24,287 nucleotides of DNA, taken from a virus. Position 1 is the stretch's first letter. Each line of letters starts with the position of its first letter. Location: IMG/VR virus record IMGVR_UViG_3300029448_006926, positions 1 to 24,287 of that record; one strand, 5' to 3'. Below are positions 1,359-9,165 of this stretch, piece after piece. The position numbers and the translations under genes are program-made. A model generated the notes under the pieces. The model made no database searches, was not told the origin of the DNA, and saw nothing but the letters and a program-made list of their open reading frames with translations.

Positions 1359-2321
1359 ATGAAAATTGCTGCTCTTACTCTTGGCATTCTTGCCATTGCT
1401 GCTCCTGCTGTTGAAGCAGGTGAAAGACTGAATGGTGCCGGTGCATCATTTCCTGCTCCAATCTATCAAAAGTGGTTTCAAGACTACGCAACCAAAACTG
1501 GCAATCAAGTAAACTACCAAGCAGTAGGATCTGGTGCCGGTGTTCGTCAGTATAAGGCAGGTACTACTGACTTTGGTGCATCCGATAAAGCAGTTTCTGA
1601 TAGCAAACTTGCTGGCATCTCCCGTCCTATGGTACAAATCCCTATGACTGGTGGTGCAATCGCAGTTGCATATAACAAGCCTGGTTGCGATCTCAAACTG
1701 TCCCAGATTGAACTTACAAAGGTCTTCTATGGACGTATTGATAACTGGTCGCAGCTCGGTTGTGCTGCAGGTCCTATCACTGTTGCTGTTCGCTCTGATG
1801 GTTCGGGCACGACAGCTGGTTTTACTAATTCACTCTCTGCTTTCTCCCCTTACTGGGCATACAAAGTAGGACGTGGTAAGGCAGTTCAGTGGCCTGCTGC
1901 TGGAACAGTTGGTGGTAAAGGCAACTCTGGTGTTGCCGGTGTCATTAAGAACACCGAAGGTGCTATTGGATACCTGAACTATGGTTATGTTGTTGGTGAT
2001 AAGTTTCAACAAGCTGCTATTCAAAATCGTGCCGGTAACTATGTGAAGGCAAATGGTGAGACCTCTGCTGCTGGTCTGGCACAGATTAAACTGGATAGCA
2101 AACTGCGTGGAACTGATGCTAACCCTGCTGGTGCTAATGCATTCCCCATCGTTTCTTTGACTTGGATCCTTGCCGAACCTGGTCATAAAACTGATGCGGT
2201 TAAATCTGCTCTTCGTTACATGCTGAGTGAAGAAGCACAAGGAGCTTCAGATTCTCTGGGATATGTACCTCTCCCCGAGTCTCTTCGACAGAAGTCTCTT
2301 TCTGCTGTTGACTCTCTTTGA
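1359..2321 (+). CDS. pstS: PstS, periplasmic phosphate-binding protein
   Basis: The product is 320 aa, typical for PstS. A 20-residue signal peptide (ending VEA) is followed by LNGAGASFPAP (24-34), the family N-terminal phosphate-binding segment. Next come the GSGAGVRQ and TTDFGASDKAV segments (57-79) and RSDGSGTT (145-152), which contacts phosphate in the family. No lipobox cysteine is present, so it is a soluble periplasmic protein, as in other cyanophage PstS. It supplies phosphate to the host PstCAB transporter, which the window does not encode. It is the second gene of the Pho-box operon and is followed 17 nt later by an intrinsic terminator, so the downstream phosphatase genes depend on read-through or another promoter. 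Confidence 0.95.
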   Translation: MKIAALTLGILAIAAPAVEAGERLNGAGASFPAPIYQKWFQDYATKTGNQVNYQAVGSGAGVRQYKAGTTDFGASDKAVSDSKLAGISRPMVQIPMTGGAIAVAYNKPGCDLKLSQIELTKVFYGRIDNWSQLGCAAGPITVAVRSDGSGTTAGFTNSLSAFSPYWAYKVGRGKAVQWPAAGTVGGKGNSGVAGVIKNTEGAIGYLNYGYVVGDKFQQAAIQNRAGNYVKANGETSAAGLAQIKLDSKLRGTDANPAGANAFPIVSLTWILAEPGHKTDAVKSALRYMLSEEAQGASDSLGYVPLPESLRQKSLSAVDSL

Positions 2322-2337
2322 TATTTGATTATTATTC

Positions 2338-2365
2338 TCCCTCCCTTCGGGGAGGGATTTTTTTT
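2338..2365 (+). terminator. UUCG-loop intrinsic terminator between pstS and the phosphatase gene
   Basis: A perfect 8-bp GC-rich stem (TCCCTCCC 2338-2345 with GGGAGGGA 2350-2357) closed by a TTCG tetraloop is followed by eight T (2358-2365). It is one of the strongest terminators in the window. No promoter is obvious between it and the 2389 start, so it probably sets the ratio of PstS to the downstream genes rather than fully isolating them. Confidence 0.93.
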
Positions 2366-2388
2366 GTTCCTCTACTCCGTATAAAGAA

Positions 2389-4431
2389 ATGAATAGAAAA
2401 CTTTTCTCTGCTATGATTGCGGGCACTTTATTTGTAGCACCTGCAGCATCTATCGCAGAAACAATTCGTATTGGTGAGACTACTGCTTTGATTCCTGAAG
2501 CAGGTCTTGCTACAGAAAAAGTCGTAGATGGTGGTAACGGAAACGTTAACTTCCCATACGCAAATTTTAAAGCAATTGCTACTGTTGGTGAAGTTGGTGA
2601 TAATGGACTTGCACTGACTGGATATCCAGATGGTCAGGCAGCATATCTGCTTGATAACGATACCATTCGTGTTATCTATCAGTCTGAATCCTATGCCACT
2701 ATGGGTAAGGCACCTGTTCCTGAGACCTACAATTGGGTTATGGAAAATGGTGTAACCTTCTCTGGTTCTCACGTTCACACGATTGATTATGATCGTGCCA
2801 AGTTTGCTAATTTCCTGAATACTGGTGAGTCTGCAGAAGGAATGGTTAAGGGTTCTGGTAAACTCTTCAACCGTATTTACAATGTATTTGGAGATGAAGT
2901 TGTAAAGGGTGGAGTCTGGGGTAACCAAGCACTTCCCGATCAAACAATTGTACCTTTCCTTCCCAAGTACCAACTGTCTGAAGCTGACTTCTTCCTGCAA
3001 TCCTTCTGTGGTGCATGGTATGAGCAAGCAAATAAGTATGGTGATGGTATTGGACTTGCTGATGATGTATGGTTAACTGCTGAAGAGTGGGAAATTGGAC
3101 GCATGTTCACTGGTTCTAAGAAGACTGGTGGTAAGGAGTCTGCTAAGACTATGGGTCTTGCATCCGTGGTTGTTGATGTCAAGAACCAAGTTGCATATAC
3201 CGCACCTGCTCTGGGTCAGACTGGTTATGAGAAACTGATGCCAATCAACCCACAACATGAAGACTATGTTGTTATCGTTGGTGCTGGATATAACCATAAT
3301 CAGGAACCTGCTCCTCTGAAGGTTTATGTTGGTATGAAGGATCGTCTTGCTGATGGTTCTGAGATTGACTACTCTACTGCTAATGAGCGTGATGCATTCC
3401 TTGCTCGCAATGGTATGCTTTATGGTCGCATTTATGGATTTGCGATGCCTACCGAATCTTATGCTGCACTGGGTCTGGAAGCAAACCCTGCTGCCAAGAT
3501 GATGGATGAGTATTTGCAGAATGCCGATGCACCTAATACATTTGAAGGTCGTTTCTATCCTACTTCTTATCAGTGGAGTGGTTGGGACAATCCAGTCGCA
3601 GTCAAAGATACTGAGATGATGTTGTGGGAACAGGCAGGTGAGCAACCAGAAGGATATACTTTCTTCAATGGTGACTCCAAAGCTGAGCATCCTGCAGTTG
3701 ATCCTGATATCACCCGCACTCGTTATGTTCAGAACATGACCAACAAGGGTGGTATTCTTGGTTTTGATTTTGGTAACATTGGTGCTGCTCTGGATGCTGC
3801 TAATGGTGATCTTCCTGAGTTCCTGCCTGCTTCTGGTATTCGTGTTGTTGCTGCCGTTGATGGTGCTCTTACTCTGAAGACTGGTGGTGAAGGTGCCGTG
3901 AAGGGTGGTTCTGCCGCAATTCATGTGGAGAAGAACAAGGCAGCAATGGTTGCTCCTGATGGACTGTACTGGACTAAGCACAAGGATGGTTCTTTCCTGA
4001 TTGTTGATGAAGATTCAGGTAATGATTTTGGTGAGCGTAAGTATGTGCTCCCAATCAATGAGTCTGATATGACTCTGAGTGAAGCAAACACTGGTTACCT
4101 GTTAGGTCTTGCTGGTGGTAAGCACTCTTCCCGTTATCAAGCAGGTGCATCTGCTCTTGGTGGTGCATTCTCCAAAGCAACAACTTCTGAGTTCTCCGGT
4201 TCTTGGAACGTAACTGCTCTGACTGCTAAGAAGGGTCCATTCGGTATGTTTGGATTCTATTCAGCAGATGAAATTGCTGGAACTGGTGAACAGAAAATCA
4301 TTCAGGGTATCGATACTAAGGATCAACTCTTCATTGGTGTTGTCCAAGCAAGAGGTGAGTCTGGTGGTGCAGTTGCCGAACAAGGTGCTGATGCCGGTGG
4401 ACAAATCTTCCAATTCAACTTCAAATTCTAA
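2389..4431 (+). CDS. Secreted alkaline-phosphatase-like protein (PhoX/DUF839-type)
   Basis: The product is 680 aa with a 23-residue signal peptide (ending SIA before ETIRIG). Segments reminiscent of PhoX/DUF839 calcium-dependent phosphatases include SHVHTIDYD (127-135), an acidic region before EGRFYP, and PDGLYW (523-528) followed by an acidic metal-type stretch, VDEDSGND (538-545). The frame is intact and the protein ends FNFKF. It lies between pstS and a secreted beta-propeller in a Pho-linked block, the place where cyanophage genomes carry a gene labelled phoA or alkaline phosphatase. Expected role: hydrolysis of organic phosphate esters outside the cytoplasm. Context supports this more than motifs do; the exact phosphatase family and activity are inferred. 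It is separated from pstS by the 2338 terminator. Confidence 0.65.
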   Translation: MNRKLFSAMIAGTLFVAPAASIAETIRIGETTALIPEAGLATEKVVDGGNGNVNFPYANFKAIATVGEVGDNGLALTGYPDGQAAYLLDNDTIRVIYQSESYATMGKAPVPETYNWVMENGVTFSGSHVHTIDYDRAKFANFLNTGESAEGMVKGSGKLFNRIYNVFGDEVVKGGVWGNQALPDQTIVPFLPKYQLSEADFFLQSFCGAWYEQANKYGDGIGLADDVWLTAEEWEIGRMFTGSKKTGGKESAKTMGLASVVVDVKNQVAYTAPALGQTGYEKLMPINPQHEDYVVIVGAGYNHNQEPAPLKVYVGMKDRLADGSEIDYSTANERDAFLARNGMLYGRIYGFAMPTESYAALGLEANPAAKMMDEYLQNADAPNTFEGRFYPTSYQWSGWDNPVAVKDTEMMLWEQAGEQPEGYTFFNGDSKAEHPAVDPDITRTRYVQNMTNKGGILGFDFGNIGAALDAANGDLPEFLPASGIRVVAAVDGALTLKTGGEGAVKGGSAAIHVEKNKAAMVAPDGLYWTKHKDGSFLIVDEDSGNDFGERKYVLPINESDMTLSEANTGYLLGLAGGKHSSRYQAGASALGGAFSKATTSEFSGSWNVTALTAKKGPFGMFGFYSADEIAGTGEQKIIQGIDTKDQLFIGVVQARGESGGAVAEQGADAGGQIFQFNFKF

Positions 4432-4442
4432 GGTAAAAATAA

Positions 4443-5702
4443 ATGTATCTAGAACTTATTAAACTGGTAAGTTTACCAGTAATTGCTCTGGGTGCTATCG
4501 TTGGGGCAGATGTTTCTGCCCTTTCCGGTGCATTCGCAGCTCCTACTTTTGAGCAGGTTGGTCAGTATGGTGTTGGTGAAGATTCTGCTGCCGAGATTAT
4601 TGCTTCCGATGGACAAATTCTTGCATACTCCAACTCCGATAAAGGATCTATCGACTTTGTGTCTATTATTGATCCTTCCAACCCTACCTCTATCACTTCT
4701 GTGGATGTTGGTGGTGAACCAACCAGTGTTGCAATCCACAATGGATATGCGATTGCGGCTATTAACACCTCTGAATCCTTCACAAATCCATCGGGTTATG
4801 TTGCGGTGATTGATTTGTGGGACTATCAAGTAGTAAAAGAGATTGTTCTTGCCGGTCAACCAGATGCTGTTGCTATTAGTCCTAATGGTAAGTTTGCTGC
4901 CGTTGCCATTGAAAATGAGAGAGATGAAGATCTTAATGATGGACTGATTCCTCAGTATCCTGCCGGTAATGTTGCTATTATTAATTTGGAAGGTGAGGTA
5001 ACTTATGCAGATGTTCGTGGTCTTGCTGGCATTGCTCCTAGTGATCCTGAACCTGAGTTTGTTGATATCAATGACAAAGGTGAAATTGTTGTTACTCTTC
5101 AAGAGAATAATCATTTGGTTGTTCTTGATTCCAGTGGTAATGTCATCTCCCATTTCTCTGCTGGCAAGGTAGACCTTTATGACATCGACGACACAAAAGA
5201 TGGTTACTATATGCCTGTCGGTTCTCGTCAGGGTGTACGTCGTGAGCCCGATGCTGTTGCTTGGATTGATAATGATCACTTCGCAACTGCCAATGAGGGT
5301 GATTATAAACTGAAGCGTCGTGGTGAGCACAAGCGTGGTGGTTCCAGAGGATTTACAATTTGGAACAAGAATGGCACGATAGTGTATGATTCCGGTAACA
5401 CTTTTGAGAATACTCTTGCCAGAGCAGGTTATTGGAATGATAAACGTGCCGAGAAGAAGGGTGTTGAACCTGAGTCTGTTGCGGTCGGAACTTATAATGG
5501 CGTTCCTATGCTGTTTGTGGGTGCCGAGAGAGCAAATGCAGTTGGTGTTTATAATATCTCTGATTTGTCTTCTCCAGTCATGACTCAAATTCTTCCTACA
5601 GGTAAAGCACCTGAAGGACTTCTTGCTTTAGAAAATGAAGGACTCTTCATTACTTCTAATGAAAAAGATGCGGTAAATAGTATCAGTATCTTTAAGTTCT
5701 GA
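4443..5702 (+). CDS. Secreted beta-propeller, choice-of-anchor-I / phytase-esterase-like protein
   Basis: The product is 419 aa. The N-terminal hydrophobic segment (about residues 8-32, ending AFA) reads as a signal peptide. The rest consists of repeated blade-like units (VAIHNGYAIAAIN, DAVAISPNGKFAAVAIEN, PESVAVGTYNG, KAPEGLLALENEGLFITSNE), the pattern of propellers in the choice-of-anchor-I family. Bacterial relatives are often annotated as phytase- or alkaline-phosphatase-like. Conserved acidic loops (ENERDED near 152, NEGDYK near 283) could bind metal. The start lies 12 nt after the preceding stop with an AAGGT ribosome site, so it is translated together with the phosphatase-like gene. 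A second phosphoester-releasing enzyme, or an accessory to it, is the likely role. No catalytic residue can be assigned with certainty. Confidence 0.7.
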   Translation: MYLELIKLVSLPVIALGAIVGADVSALSGAFAAPTFEQVGQYGVGEDSAAEIIASDGQILAYSNSDKGSIDFVSIIDPSNPTSITSVDVGGEPTSVAIHNGYAIAAINTSESFTNPSGYVAVIDLWDYQVVKEIVLAGQPDAVAISPNGKFAAVAIENERDEDLNDGLIPQYPAGNVAIINLEGEVTYADVRGLAGIAPSDPEPEFVDINDKGEIVVTLQENNHLVVLDSSGNVISHFSAGKVDLYDIDDTKDGYYMPVGSRQGVRREPDAVAWIDNDHFATANEGDYKLKRRGEHKRGGSRGFTIWNKNGTIVYDSGNTFENTLARAGYWNDKRAEKKGVEPESVAVGTYNGVPMLFVGAERANAVGVYNISDLSSPVMTQILPTGKAPEGLLALENEGLFITSNEKDAVNSISIFKF

Positions 5703-6459: not shown

Positions 6460-6624
6460 ATGAATCCTGTTGATATTTTATTATTGATTGGAGAACTTGA
6501 AGGTAGTTCTGCACAATGTAGAAAACTTAAATTTATAGAAGACTCTCTCGTTTTAGATGAAATGAAGAAAAGATATTATAAACTTTACTTTAAATTAAAA
6601 CGAGAACAAAATAATCCTCAGTAG
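6460..6624 (+). CDS. Small basic protein overlapping tRNA-Asn, unidentified
   Basis: The product is 54 aa: a hydrophobic start (MNPVDILLLIGELEG) followed by a Lys/Tyr-rich helical C-terminus (DEMKKRYYKLYFKLKRE). The start is 4 nt after the previous stop. The last 10 nt overlap the acceptor and following bases of tRNA-Asn, and the TAG stop is formed by tRNA positions 8-10. Codon use matches its neighbours. Unknown function. It could be a chance frame, though its spacing in the gene string favours a real gene. Confidence 0.5.
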   Translation: MNPVDILLLIGELEGSSAQCRKLKFIEDSLVLDEMKKRYYKLYFKLKREQNNPQ

Positions 6625-6686
6625 CTCAGCGGCAGAGCCGACGACTGTTAATCGTCTGGTCGTAGGTTCAAATCCTACCTGGGGAG
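6615..6686 (+). tRNA. tRNA-Asn (anticodon GTT)
   Basis: The acceptor TCCTCAG (6615-6621) pairs with CTGGGGA (6679-6685), including one G-T pair, with discriminator G6686. The anticodon stem GACGA/TCGTC encloses a loop with GTT at 6647-6649. The T arm carries GGTTCAAATCC. No CCA is encoded. It lies 3 nt before tRNA-Val and overlaps the end of a small gene. Confidence 0.95.
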
Positions 6687-6689
6687 TTT

Positions 6690-6761
6690 GGGAGATTAGC
6701 TCAGCGGTAGAGCAACTCGTTTACACCGAGTGGGTCACTGGTTCGATCCCGGTATCTCCCA
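6690..6761 (+). tRNA. tRNA-Val (anticodon TAC)
   Basis: The acceptor GGGAGAT (6690-6696) pairs with ATCTCCC (6754-6760), with discriminator A6761. The anticodon stem ACTCG/CGAGT encloses TAC at 6722-6724. The T loop is GGTTCGATCCC. It forms a pair with tRNA-Asn and is likely cut from a shared transcript. Confidence 0.95.
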
Positions 6762-6769
6762 TATAAATA
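6762..6769 (+). promoter_or_regulatory. T4-type late promoter TATAAATA
   Basis: An exact TATAAATA begins one base after the tRNA-Val discriminator and 35 nt before the 6804 ATG, giving a short leader of about 22 nt. The match and spacing suit a late promoter for 6804-7058 and the following tRNA-Ser. Confidence 0.65.
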
Positions 6770-6803: not shown

Positions 6804-7058
6804 ATGGATAATATAAAGGTAAGGTGCCTCTCCTGTAATGTGGAGTTAGTGAGCACTAGTAAAGTTCAGTGTTGTGGATGTCCAAACATGATGAGAGTTG
6901 TAGACAACAAAGTTAGTGCAGTTGACTTAACGAAGGTAGTTATGTTAAACTCTATCAGTGTTAAAAACAACAAAACCTTCTTAACACAAGAAGATGTTAT
7001 GTGGCAAGAAGCAAGAAAACAACGTAAAGTTCGTAAATTGAACTTTGAAGTTCGATAG
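6804..7058 (+). CDS. Small zinc-ribbon-like protein, cyanophage hypothetical
   Basis: The product is 84 aa. The N-terminal 30 residues hold CLSC (8-11) and CCGCP (23-27), two cysteine pairs 12 residues apart, as in a zinc ribbon or rubredoxin-like knuckle. The C-terminal part is hydrophilic and basic (EARKQRKVRKLNF), suggesting nucleic-acid or protein contact. It is preceded by a late promoter. Its TAG stop abuts the first base of tRNA-Ser, with no gap. The family is not named with confidence. A DNA- or RNA-binding accessory role is an inference. Confidence 0.7.
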   Translation: MDNIKVRCLSCNVELVSTSKVQCCGCPNMMRVVDNKVSAVDLTKVVMLNSISVKNNKTFLTQEDVMWQEARKQRKVRKLNFEVR

Positions 7059-7141
7059 GGAGAGAGTCCGGTTGGTCGAGGACACCGCCTTGAAAGCGGC
7101 TGGAGGTAATACTTTCGCAGGTTCGATTCCTGTTCTCTCCG
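7059..7141 (+). tRNA. tRNA-Ser (anticodon TGA)
   Basis: The acceptor GGAGAGA (7059-7065) pairs with TCTCTCC (7134-7140), with discriminator G. The anticodon loop CTTGAAA has TGA at 7091-7093. A long variable arm (about 7101-7118) marks a class II tRNA, as expected for serine. It starts at the base after the preceding stop codon. Confidence 0.94.
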
Positions 7142-7160
7142 TTAGAGAATAAACACTTAC

Positions 7161-7596: not shown

Positions 7597-7670
7597 CGGG
7601 ACGTAGCTCAGTTTGGTAGAGCACCCGCTTTGGGAGCGGGCGGCCGTAGGTTCAAATCCTATCGTCCCGA
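7597..7670 (+). tRNA. tRNA-Pro (anticodon TGG)
   Basis: The acceptor CGGGACG (7597-7603) pairs with CGTCCCG (7663-7669), with discriminator A. The strong anticodon stem CCCGC/GCGGG has TGG at 7631-7633. The T arm is GTAGGTTCAAATCCTAT. It reads CCA and CCG codons. Confidence 0.95.
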
Positions 7671-7694
7671 CTTGCCAGTTCATTCACTGGCATC

Positions 7695-7723
7695 TTGACT
7701 ACATACTTCAAATACTTTATAAT
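7695..7723 (+). promoter_or_regulatory. Vegetative promoter TTGACT-N17-TATAAT
   Basis: TTGACT (7695-7700) and a perfect TATAAT (7718-7723) are 17 nt apart, 22 nt before the 7746 ATG. A 7-bp hairpin (TGCCAGT 7673-7679 with ACTGGCA 7686-7692) ends 2 nt upstream of the -35. It could be the 3' hairpin of the tRNA transcript or an operator. Confidence 0.75.
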
Positions 7724-7745: not shown

Positions 7746-7961
7746 ATGGAACTGACTGAAAAATTCAAGAAAGACATTAGCACTCTTCGTGCTGCTGCTA
7801 ATGGAGAAATCTTTCTCGATGTAAAGAATCCCAAACTCTTTAAAAAAGTTCGTCGTTTTTATGAAAATTGTGGAATTGTATTCTCGGGTGATCCGGGAGA
7901 TGATTATGAAATTTTGATGGATTATTTGTATTCTGATCTTGAACTTGTAGAAACTGTATGA
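7746..7961 (+). CDS. Conserved cyanophage hypothetical protein (71 aa)
   Basis: The product is 71 aa and soluble, with EKFKKDISTLRAAANGEIFLDV, then PKLFKKVRRFYENCGIVFSGDPGDDYE and an acidic tail. It resembles a short family common in T4-like cyanophages (by-eye recognition). It has its own strong promoter and is followed 9 nt later by the structured RNA upstream of the sugar epimerase gene, so the two may share a transcript. No functional residues can be named. Confidence 0.65.
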   Translation: MELTEKFKKDISTLRAAANGEIFLDVKNPKLFKKVRRFYENCGIVFSGDPGDDYEILMDYLYSDLELVETV

Positions 7962-7970
7962 TGAATTAGT

Positions 7971-8058
7971 CACGGATGGACTATAACAGCACTGGTCGGG
8001 AAATCCCTTTGAGTTTCTTGTTTCTCAAAAAAACAAGTGGCGAGCCTGAGTCCTATAA
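7971..8058 (+). ncRNA. Structured leader RNA, candidate wcaG RNA motif
   Basis: The outer helix GGACT (7978-7982) / AGTCC (8049-8053) encloses several elements: GGG/CCC (7998-8000 / 8005-8007), CACT/AGTG (7990-7993 / 8036-8039), and interleaved helices TTTGAG/CTCAAA (8008-8013 / 8024-8029) and CTTGTTT/AAACAAG (8017-8023 / 8031-8037). The last two can form a pseudoknot only if shortened, because one loop is a single base. Otherwise they are alternatives. Known: the wcaG RNA motif is found in cyanophages and marine metagenomes upstream of exopolysaccharide genes such as wcaG-type epimerases. This RNA sits before such a gene and 2 nt before a terminator. Assignment to that family is inferred from context and fold, not from a covariance-model match. 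Confidence 0.55.
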
Positions 8059-8059
8059 A

Positions 8060-8087
8060 GCAGGGTTGCATAAACTCTGCTTTTTTT
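8060..8087 (+). terminator. Intrinsic terminator at the entry of the glycan cluster
   Basis: The stem GCAGGGTT (8060-8067) / AACTCTGC (8073-8080), with one G-T pair and a GCATA loop, is followed by seven T (8081-8087). It lies directly after the structured RNA and 32 nt before the epimerase start, the right geometry for transcription attenuation. Confidence 0.85.
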
Positions 8088-8094
8088 GTATAAT
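8066..8094 (+). promoter_or_regulatory. Vegetative promoter TTGCAT-N17-TATAAT overlapping the terminator
   Basis: TTGCAT (8066-8071) falls in the terminator loop, and a perfect TATAAT (8089-8094) follows after 17 nt. A start near 8101 would give an 18-nt leader with a weak ribosome site before the 8119 ATG. It would allow the epimerase operon to be transcribed without the upstream RNA element. Confidence 0.65.
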
Positions 8095-8118: not shown

Positions 8119-9165
8119 ATGACACAATATGTAAAAACAGCACTTGTTCTTGGTGCTGGTGGTTTTATTGGAAGTCACATGGTTAAACGTCTACGTTCAG
8201 AAGGTTATTGGGTGCGTGGGGTAGATCTGAAGTATCCAGAGTTTTCTAAGACAGAAGCAAACGAGTTTGTGCAGGGTGATCTAACAGATCGTAATTTTGT
8301 AGATAGAGTAATTAGATTCAAGGGATATCTTGGAAATTTCTACGCTTCTGTTCCTCAGCAGTATCATCAAACTTTTGATGAAATCTATCAGTTTGCTGCT
8401 GATATGGGTGGGGCTGGTTTCGTCTTTACTGGCGAAAACGATGCAGATATTATGCATAACTCTGTCAGTATCAATCTGAATGTTCTTGAAGCACAAAAAG
8501 AGTTTAATGATTACACAGTAACAAATACGACTAAAATCTTTTACTCTGGGTCTGCTTGTATGTATCCAGAGCATAATCAACTCGATCCAGAAAATCCTGA
8601 TTGCCGTGAAGAATCCGCATACCCCGCAGACCCAGACTCCGAATACGGATGGGAAAAACTTTTTTCAGAAAGACTTTATCTTGCATATCACCGTAATCAT
8701 GATATGCCTGTTAGGATTGCTAGATATCACAATATCTTTGGTCCCGAAGGAACCTGGGAAGGAGGAAGAGAGAAGGCACCAGCTGCAATCTGTCGTAAAA
8801 TTGCATACCTCCCCGAAACAGGAGGAGCAATCGAGGTGTGGGGAGATGGCCTACAGACTCGTTCCTTCCTGTTCATTGACGAATGCATTGAAGCGACTCG
8901 AAGGTTGATGGATTCGGAATTCATTGGACCTGTAAACATTGGTTCCGAAGAGATGGTTACCATCAACGAACTGGTAGACACTGCTGCTAAGGTAGCAGGT
9001 AAAGATGTTCAGAAGATTCATATTGATGGACCTCTTGGTGTTCGAGGGCGTAATTCAAACAATAATCTCATCCGTGAGAAACTTGGTTGGGATTATTCAC
9101 AGACTCTTGAAGAAGGTATTCGTAAAACTTACAATTGGATTTGTCAACAAATTGATAGGAATTGA
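8119..9165 (+). CDS. GDP-mannose 3,5-epimerase-like extended SDR
   Basis: The product is 348 aa. The NAD-binding motif GAGGFIGSH (12-20) begins the fold. AADMGGAGF (93-101), SGSACMYPE (143-151) with the GME catalytic cysteine C147, and YGWEK with Y176 and K180 follow. Then come GTWEGGREKAPAA (211-223), WGDGLQTRSF, VNIGSEEMV and GVRGRNSNNNLI. This string matches plant GDP-mannose 3,5-epimerase nearly word for word, much better than GalE or RmlB families. The reaction is GDP-D-mannose to GDP-L-galactose (and GDP-L-gulose) in the cytoplasm. It heads the glycan cluster behind a structured leader RNA. The window holds no GDP-mannose synthesis gene, so the substrate would come from the host. Confidence 0.9.
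   Translation: MTQYVKTALVLGAGGFIGSHMVKRLRSEGYWVRGVDLKYPEFSKTEANEFVQGDLTDRNFVDRVIRFKGYLGNFYASVPQQYHQTFDEIYQFAADMGGAGFVFTGENDADIMHNSVSINLNVLEAQKEFNDYTVTNTTKIFYSGSACMYPEHNQLDPENPDCREESAYPADPDSEYGWEKLFSERLYLAYHRNHDMPVRIARYHNIFGPEGTWEGGREKAPAAICRKIAYLPETGGAIEVWGDGLQTRSFLFIDECIEATRRLMDSEFIGPVNIGSEEMVTINELVDTAAKVAGKDVQKIHIDGPLGVRGRNSNNNLIREKLGWDYSQTLEEGIRKTYNWICQQIDRN

Follow-up and report, generated by a model that had tools for sequence, protein, structure and literature searches.

The wcaG RNA of T4-like cyanophages as a candidate 3′-end non-coding RNA rather than a glycan riboswitch

Introduction

Does a structured RNA that lies directly in front of a glycan gene cluster regulate that cluster, or does it belong to the gene before it? 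This question is raised by a stretch of a T4-like cyanophage (the window, 24,287 nucleotides, from a record, G000, of 27,080 bases) in which an RNA resembling the wcaG motif is followed by an intrinsic terminator and a sugar-nucleotide gene. The wcaG RNA was put forward as a possible riboswitch by Weinberg et al. 2010 (PMC2864571), and phage genome papers have repeated the idea for exopolysaccharide and high-light genes (PMC9964418, PMC9602691). These statements in print are predictions (PMC2864571, PMC9964418, PMC9602691), and no mapped transcript ends for the wcaG RNA were found in the cyanophage transcript papers covered here. An earlier reading of the window, made from its letters only (the sequence-only reading), also proposed a riboswitch that attenuates glycan synthesis. 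What is new here is a reinterpretation of the wcaG family, more than the window copy itself.

Results and Discussion

Identity of the RNA

The RNA lies between the following features of the window.

7695–7723, + strand: sigma-70-type promoter-like site, TTGACT, 17-nt spacer, TATAAT (11/12 in a consensus scan), preceding the phrog_552 gene
7746–7961, + strand: phrog_552 gene, 71 aa, function unassigned (PHROG E 2.5e-27)
7959–7961, + strand: TGA stop codon of the phrog_552 gene, 5 nt ahead of the first helix of the RNA
8119–9165, + strand: NAD-dependent epimerase/dehydratase, first gene of the glycan cluster (PF01370 E 1.6e-36; phrog_540 nucleotide-sugar epimerase)

The consensus-scan match at 7695–7723 is in itself no proof of promoter function. 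The domain and PHROG matches of the 8119–9165 product agree with the earlier description of this epimerase as the gene that opens the cluster.

A default Rfam search of the window returned tRNAs only, with no match to wcaG or to manA (RF01745). The wcaG family (RF01761) was missed because the window copy scores below the curated cut-off: cmscan at a relaxed threshold aligns the full model (positions 1–98) to 7965–8051 (+ strand) with 38.7 bits, compared to a gathering score of 42 bits. The E-value of this match is 3.2e-6 against all of Rfam and 1.1e-7 within the 27,080-base record. The covariance search that the sequence-only reading had recommended thus yields a full-length match that falls short of the gathering score. 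Close relatives of the window RNA score 69–104 bits with the same model. The signature of the wcaG 3′ half is present (GUUUC at 8013–8017 and GUGGCGAGCCUGA at 8037–8049) and is invariant in relatives. In the cmscan alignment, the first helix of RF01761 (positions 9–15 with 24–30) has several pairs that are non-standard; its place is taken by a D-type hairpin (7967–7971/7979–7983) that covaries among the window's own relatives. We conclude from these comparisons that the window RNA is a divergent wcaG relative and not a curated-threshold member of the family. The claim of a structured wcaG-family RNA holds in this form.

The likeness to RF01761 thus covers the full-length alignment, the order of hairpins, GUUUC and the GUGGCGAGCCUGA tail, the occurrence in T4-like cyanophages and the glycan-type neighbour, whereas the score and the D-type first module set the window copy apart. 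The Rfam entry itself (98 positions, type 'Cis-reg') does not include the arrays of up to 5 modules or the 3′-end position seen in relatives. The manA RNA is likewise a structured RNA of T4-like cyanophages, and in S-CREM1 it too lies among tRNA genes, but it forms a separate Rfam family.

A modular RNA with a terminal pseudoknot

The window copy consists of two modules, a D module followed by a terminal pseudoknot.

7967–7997, + strand: wcaG module 1 (D type), the hairpin 7967–7971/7979–7983, an A-rich stretch and a conserved CUGGUCGGG from 7992
7998–8007, + strand: linker hairpin between the modules, GGG 7998–8000 with CCC 8005–8007, seen in the sequence and aligned to the middle hairpin of RF01761
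8009–8037, + strand: wcaG module 2 (C type, terminal), an H-type pseudoknot indicated by covariation in 76 relatives and by the RF01761 match
8038–8049, + strand: conserved terminal tail UGGCGAGCCUGA, which marks the last module of arrays; GUGGCG is invariant in 76 aligned relatives

In module 2, helix S1 (8009–8013/8024–8028, 5 pairs) crosses helix S2 (8017–8023/8031–8037, 7 pairs), with the loop L1 (UUU, 8014–8016) between them. Model R1, whose training set includes the window, matches positions 8003–8043 with an E-value of 4.4e-11. The case for structure is a comparative one, since the folding energy of the window RNA alone is unremarkable (z −1.87).

Relatives were gathered via the epimerase (80 loci) and, regardless of genes, by the RNA pattern AAGTGGCGAGCCTGA, which picks out one tail type (120 loci); annotated phages were added. 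The terminal tail served as the anchor for finding array instances. A typical module opens with S1 and a UUU loop, continues with S2 and the second strand of S1, and closes, after an A-rich stretch, with the second strand of S2 and UGG. Short G/C hairpins join the modules, and the last one closes with GUGGCGAGCC or GUGGCGUGCA. A script counted 1–5 modules per array, mostly 3; a narrower anchor list gave 1–4.

Both crossing helices are conserved among 76 distinct terminal modules. In an unguided alignment (A1), which lacks a few unplaceable rows and is thereby slightly biased toward structure, 98.7% of the cells are paired. Double-changed cells number 153, compared to 41 ± 8 after shuffling, a control that is weakened by the kinship of the rows. 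When the partner strand is slid out of register, pairing drops to 31–56%. The helices are built from varied pairs (CUGG/CCAG, CCUG/CAGG, CCAG/CUGG, UUAG/CUAA and GAG/CUC), and this variety, together with the slid control, makes a convincing comparative case for the crossing helices. The S1 hairpin of the D type (4 pairs) is paired in 98.3% of cells among 75 relatives, with 33 double changes against a shuffle maximum of 11. The compensatory changes that the sequence-only reading asked of homologs are therefore found in both crossing helices of the terminal module, and the interleaved inner helices that it described are borne out for the second half of the RNA. We do not accept its outer helix (7979–7983/8049–8053). 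This helix appears in the minimum free energy fold, excludes the covarying module-1 hairpin, and, judged by eye, lacks conservation among the closest relatives.

Likeness between modules of the same array (48%) does not exceed that between modules from separate arrays (49%), whereas modules that occupy the same position share 60% and 73%. Because likeness follows module position and not array membership, the array reads as an old RNA with differentiated parts rather than as a recent repeat amplification.

D modules often stand ~250 nt ahead of the remaining array, with a small ORF of ~75 aa between that starts just behind the D linker (L014, L019, L030, L084, L085, L119 and others). Two of these loci, L084 and L085, carry two D modules, then the small gene and then B–C modules.

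Distribution

A blastn search with the two-module consensus located 119 sites in 116 phage records. All R1 matches of a genome cluster at one locus in 20 of 25 records, which suggests that wcaG arrays occupy one locus per phage genome. RF01761, which does match phage records, gave no match in 386 cyanobacterial genomes under stricter filters and with no cellular positive control, and four pattern matches in genome contigs are attributable to chance. A host origin of the RNA was rejected on the basis of this absence.

The RNA begins at the stop codon of the preceding gene

Of 127 arrays at which an upstream ORF of 50 aa or more ends, 118 have the stop codon of that ORF within their first module. 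The upstream ORFs represent more than a dozen unrelated families, and homologues of phrog_552 end at arrays in other loci as well. As the D module runs across their stop codons, unrelated proteins (halogenase, oxygenase-like and others) have the C-terminus TDGL in common; examples are the halogenase of S-RIM44 (L083) and loci L025, L035 and L105. Since the RNA begins at the upstream stop codon, there is little space in between for a separate promoter; the wcaG RNA is most naturally read as transcribed from upstream, and would then belong to the transcript of the preceding gene. In genomes as compact as those of cyanophages, proximity to a stop codon is to be expected in part and, alone, is unremarkable. 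Pseudoknot-driven read-through or frameshifting, considered in view of the stop codons within the first module, was rejected, as reading on in frame would add few codons (median 17).

The RNA ends at a terminator or a tRNA

8057–8087, + strand: intrinsic terminator, stem 8057–8067/8073–8083 (11 pairs, 5-nt loop) and T tract 8081–8087
8066–8094, + strand: promoter inside the terminator, identified from the sequence, −35 TTGCAT 8066–8071, 17-nt spacer, −10 TATAAT 8089–8094

A G+C-rich hairpin followed by a T tract places an intrinsic terminator directly behind the RNA, as the sequence-only reading had recognized. A script found a terminator behind 120 of 132 instances. The other 12 comprise four chance matches in unrelated sequences, two arrays cut by contig ends, two with mismatched hairpins, two that run into a tRNA, one that runs into an ORF and one without a hairpin. 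By inspection, the arrays of S-RIM44, S-SZBM1 and S-H38 run directly into an ORF with no evident terminator.

In ten cases a tRNA lies behind the array. Nine of these tRNAs begin 38–44 nt past GUGGCG, approximately where the terminator would end. The loci with a tRNA in place of the terminator are L229, L230, L234, L248, L253 and L254 (tRNA-Gly), L082 and L172 (tRNA-Asn) and L247 (tRNA-Pro), and in those cases inspected a hairpin is found between array and tRNA. In the tenth case, S-CREM1, the tRNA stands at 63 nt, behind a promoter-like sequence. At such loci, the RNA could gain its 3′ end when the 5′ end of the tRNA is processed.

The promoter is folded into the terminator, with the −35 element within the hairpin, the T tract in the spacer and the −10 element right behind the T tract; its predicted start is at ~8101. 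Described earlier as a good promoter, it does overlap the terminator and the same composite recurs in relatives, but its −35 element agrees with consensus at just 3/6 positions and the site falls under the threshold of a generic scan. A promoter embedded as in the window, and hence downstream of the RNA, is found in 100 of 123 array terminators. In L137, L156, L170 and L191 the next gene is convergent; here the terminator lacks the embedded promoter and the RNA is intact.

Composites of the 8057–8094 type (L031, L053, L056, L210 and others) number 155 unique occurrences in 1.44 Mb, with and without wcaG. Of those in the fetched loci, 52/155 lie outside wcaG, compared to none in 231 kb of shuffled sequence. 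As it is found without wcaG too, the terminator–promoter composite appears to be a cyanophage element in its own right, one that would provide a compact separator of two operons. In L059 (901–1000), the array terminator has a UUCG loop; the sequence behind it, CATAAATA, is reminiscent of a T4-type late promoter and not of the sigma-70 composite.

Relation to the glycan genes

If the RNA were an attenuating riboswitch, it would sense a sugar nucleotide and set termination, and hence read-through into the glycan cluster; the Rfam type 'Cis-reg' implies likewise. The terminator directly behind the RNA is what such a mechanism would use, glycan genes are frequent neighbours, and wcaG is among the candidates listed by Weinberg et al. 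2010 (PMC2864571). Among 79 downstream ORFs of the loci gathered by RNA pattern, 41 belong to the same epimerase family and most of the others look like glycan or sugar-nucleotide genes; among annotated phages, glycan genes follow the RNA in Bellamy, SynMITS9220M01, S-SM2, DSL-LC03, S-SRM01 and S-SKS1. Elsewhere, however, the RNA precedes tRNA-Gly, -Pro, -Asn, -Leu or -Met, hli, 2OG-oxygenase or hypothetical genes (S-CAM1, S-RSM4, S-H9-1, S-H9-2, Sf-CH11, S-IOM18, S-BM3, S-H35, S-CREM1, syn9, S-H38, S-RIM2, S-RIM4, Syn1 and others). A riboswitch is expected in the 5′ leader of the gene that it regulates, whereas the embedded promoter and its predicted start lie downstream of the RNA here, as the promoter does in most arrays; in four loci, moreover, the next gene is convergent. 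The sequence-only reading had itself held that transcription always starting at about 8101 would speak against attenuation, and this is the start that the sequence predicts. We also looked for an alternative pairing between the terminator arms and the RNA and detected none: complementarity of an arm to its own RNA is no higher than in swapped controls, in which arms were scored against the RNAs of other phages (5′ arm, 14.37 versus 14.20 ± 0.16; 3′ arm, 11.74 versus 12.05 ± 0.16). This comparison bears on alternative pairing, as opposed to other riboswitch mechanisms. Structured RNA immediately before an intrinsic terminator is shared with known terminator attenuators and riboswitches, but the wcaG RNA differs from them in showing no antiterminator pairing and in having the promoter of the next operon inside the terminator.

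Taken together, these observations make an attenuating riboswitch unlikely, and the proposal that the window RNA attenuates glycan synthesis is not supported. Glycan-specific regulation was rejected, as glycan genes are a frequent but not a constant neighbour. The RNA is retained without adjoining glycan genes and is, by sequence comparison, independent of the downstream gene, and the epimerase at 8119–9165 is probably not the target of the window RNA. Some link to glycan genes may exist, for example by indirect regulation of read-through.

Proposed function

On balance, we consider it somewhat probable that the RNA is a phage non-coding RNA that ends the transcript of the upstream gene, is released at its 3′ end and acts, probably, in trans. 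Structure, position, the 3′ terminator or tRNA and independence from the downstream gene come from sequence comparison; from these we infer that the RNA is transcribed from upstream, released and active in trans. In the window, polymerase starting at the promoter-like site 7695–7723 would transcribe the phrog_552 gene and then the wcaG RNA, and would stop at the terminator 8057–8087, leaving an RNA with a defined 3′ end that carries the chain of pseudoknots. Transcription of the glycan cluster would restart from the embedded promoter at ~8101, and the glycan mRNA would therefore lack the wcaG RNA. The released RNA may then bind a protein or other ligand and act in trans, apart from its neighbours. 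We favour an RNA that works independently of its neighbours because it has one locus per genome, unrelated adjoining genes and a variable number of modules, and was not found in hosts. A single copy at varying places is compatible with action in trans without proving it.

The main rival is protection of the upstream mRNA, in which the pseudoknots and terminator would form a 3′-UTR element that acts in cis, shielding the message from exonucleases or sharpening termination, with no trans role. Stable pseudoknots are plausible exonuclease blocks, and an array that abuts the stop codon at nearly all loci and ends in a terminator or tRNA is well placed for this role. Yet the array has one locus per genome, though many genes would gain from a general stabilizer; the genes that it follows are unrelated; and modules differentiated by position exceed the needs of a mere roadblock. 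We therefore regard such a cis element as possible but rather less probable than the released RNA. H-type pseudoknots in tandem, with an intrinsic terminator and a gene behind them, also recall the type III antitoxin RNAs ToxI, CptI and antiQ (PMC5086642), and a pseudo-ToxI can be phage-borne (PMC5086642), so that the array might mimic an antitoxin and neutralize a ToxN-like ribonuclease of the host. In contrast to these systems, wcaG modules are position-specific and not homogenized, the downstream gene is variable and no toxin, and the distribution seen here is restricted to phages. Moreover, a ToxN family match above the cut-off was present in only 1 of 386 cyanobacterial genomes, and no antitoxin family was matched. 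Near-identical repeats with a cognate ToxN, which define type III antitoxins, are thus not what we find (48% likeness within arrays; ToxN nearly absent). Type III antitoxin identity was rejected, and we consider antitoxin mimicry very improbable.

For the family as a whole, we tentatively extend the proposal of a released RNA, with less confidence than for its core. The wcaG RNA would be a phage-specific non-coding RNA of position-differentiated pseudoknots, present at one locus per cyanomyovirus genome, made from the 3′ end of any preceding gene and freed by the terminator or by processing of the adjoining tRNA. During infection it would act in trans on some factor of the host or the phage. 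Should the RNA indeed be part of the upstream transcript and function separately from the genes around it, assays with sugar nucleotides would be misdirected, and an RNA conserved in >100 genomes of abundant ocean viruses would await its partner.

Other features of the window

Five tRNA genes (Gly, Asn, Val, Ser and Pro) are present in the window, four of them at most 1.4 kb upstream of the wcaG RNA.

181–251, 6615–6762, 7056–7142 and 7597–7671: tRNA gene regions

Positions 1359–5702 encode a PBP_like_2 phosphate-binding-type protein, a 680-aa protein that matches no Pfam family and a choice-of-anchor I protein. Two cyanophage outer-membrane-barrel genes (399–767 and 957–1322) precede these genes, and together they possibly form a phosphate-acquisition block.
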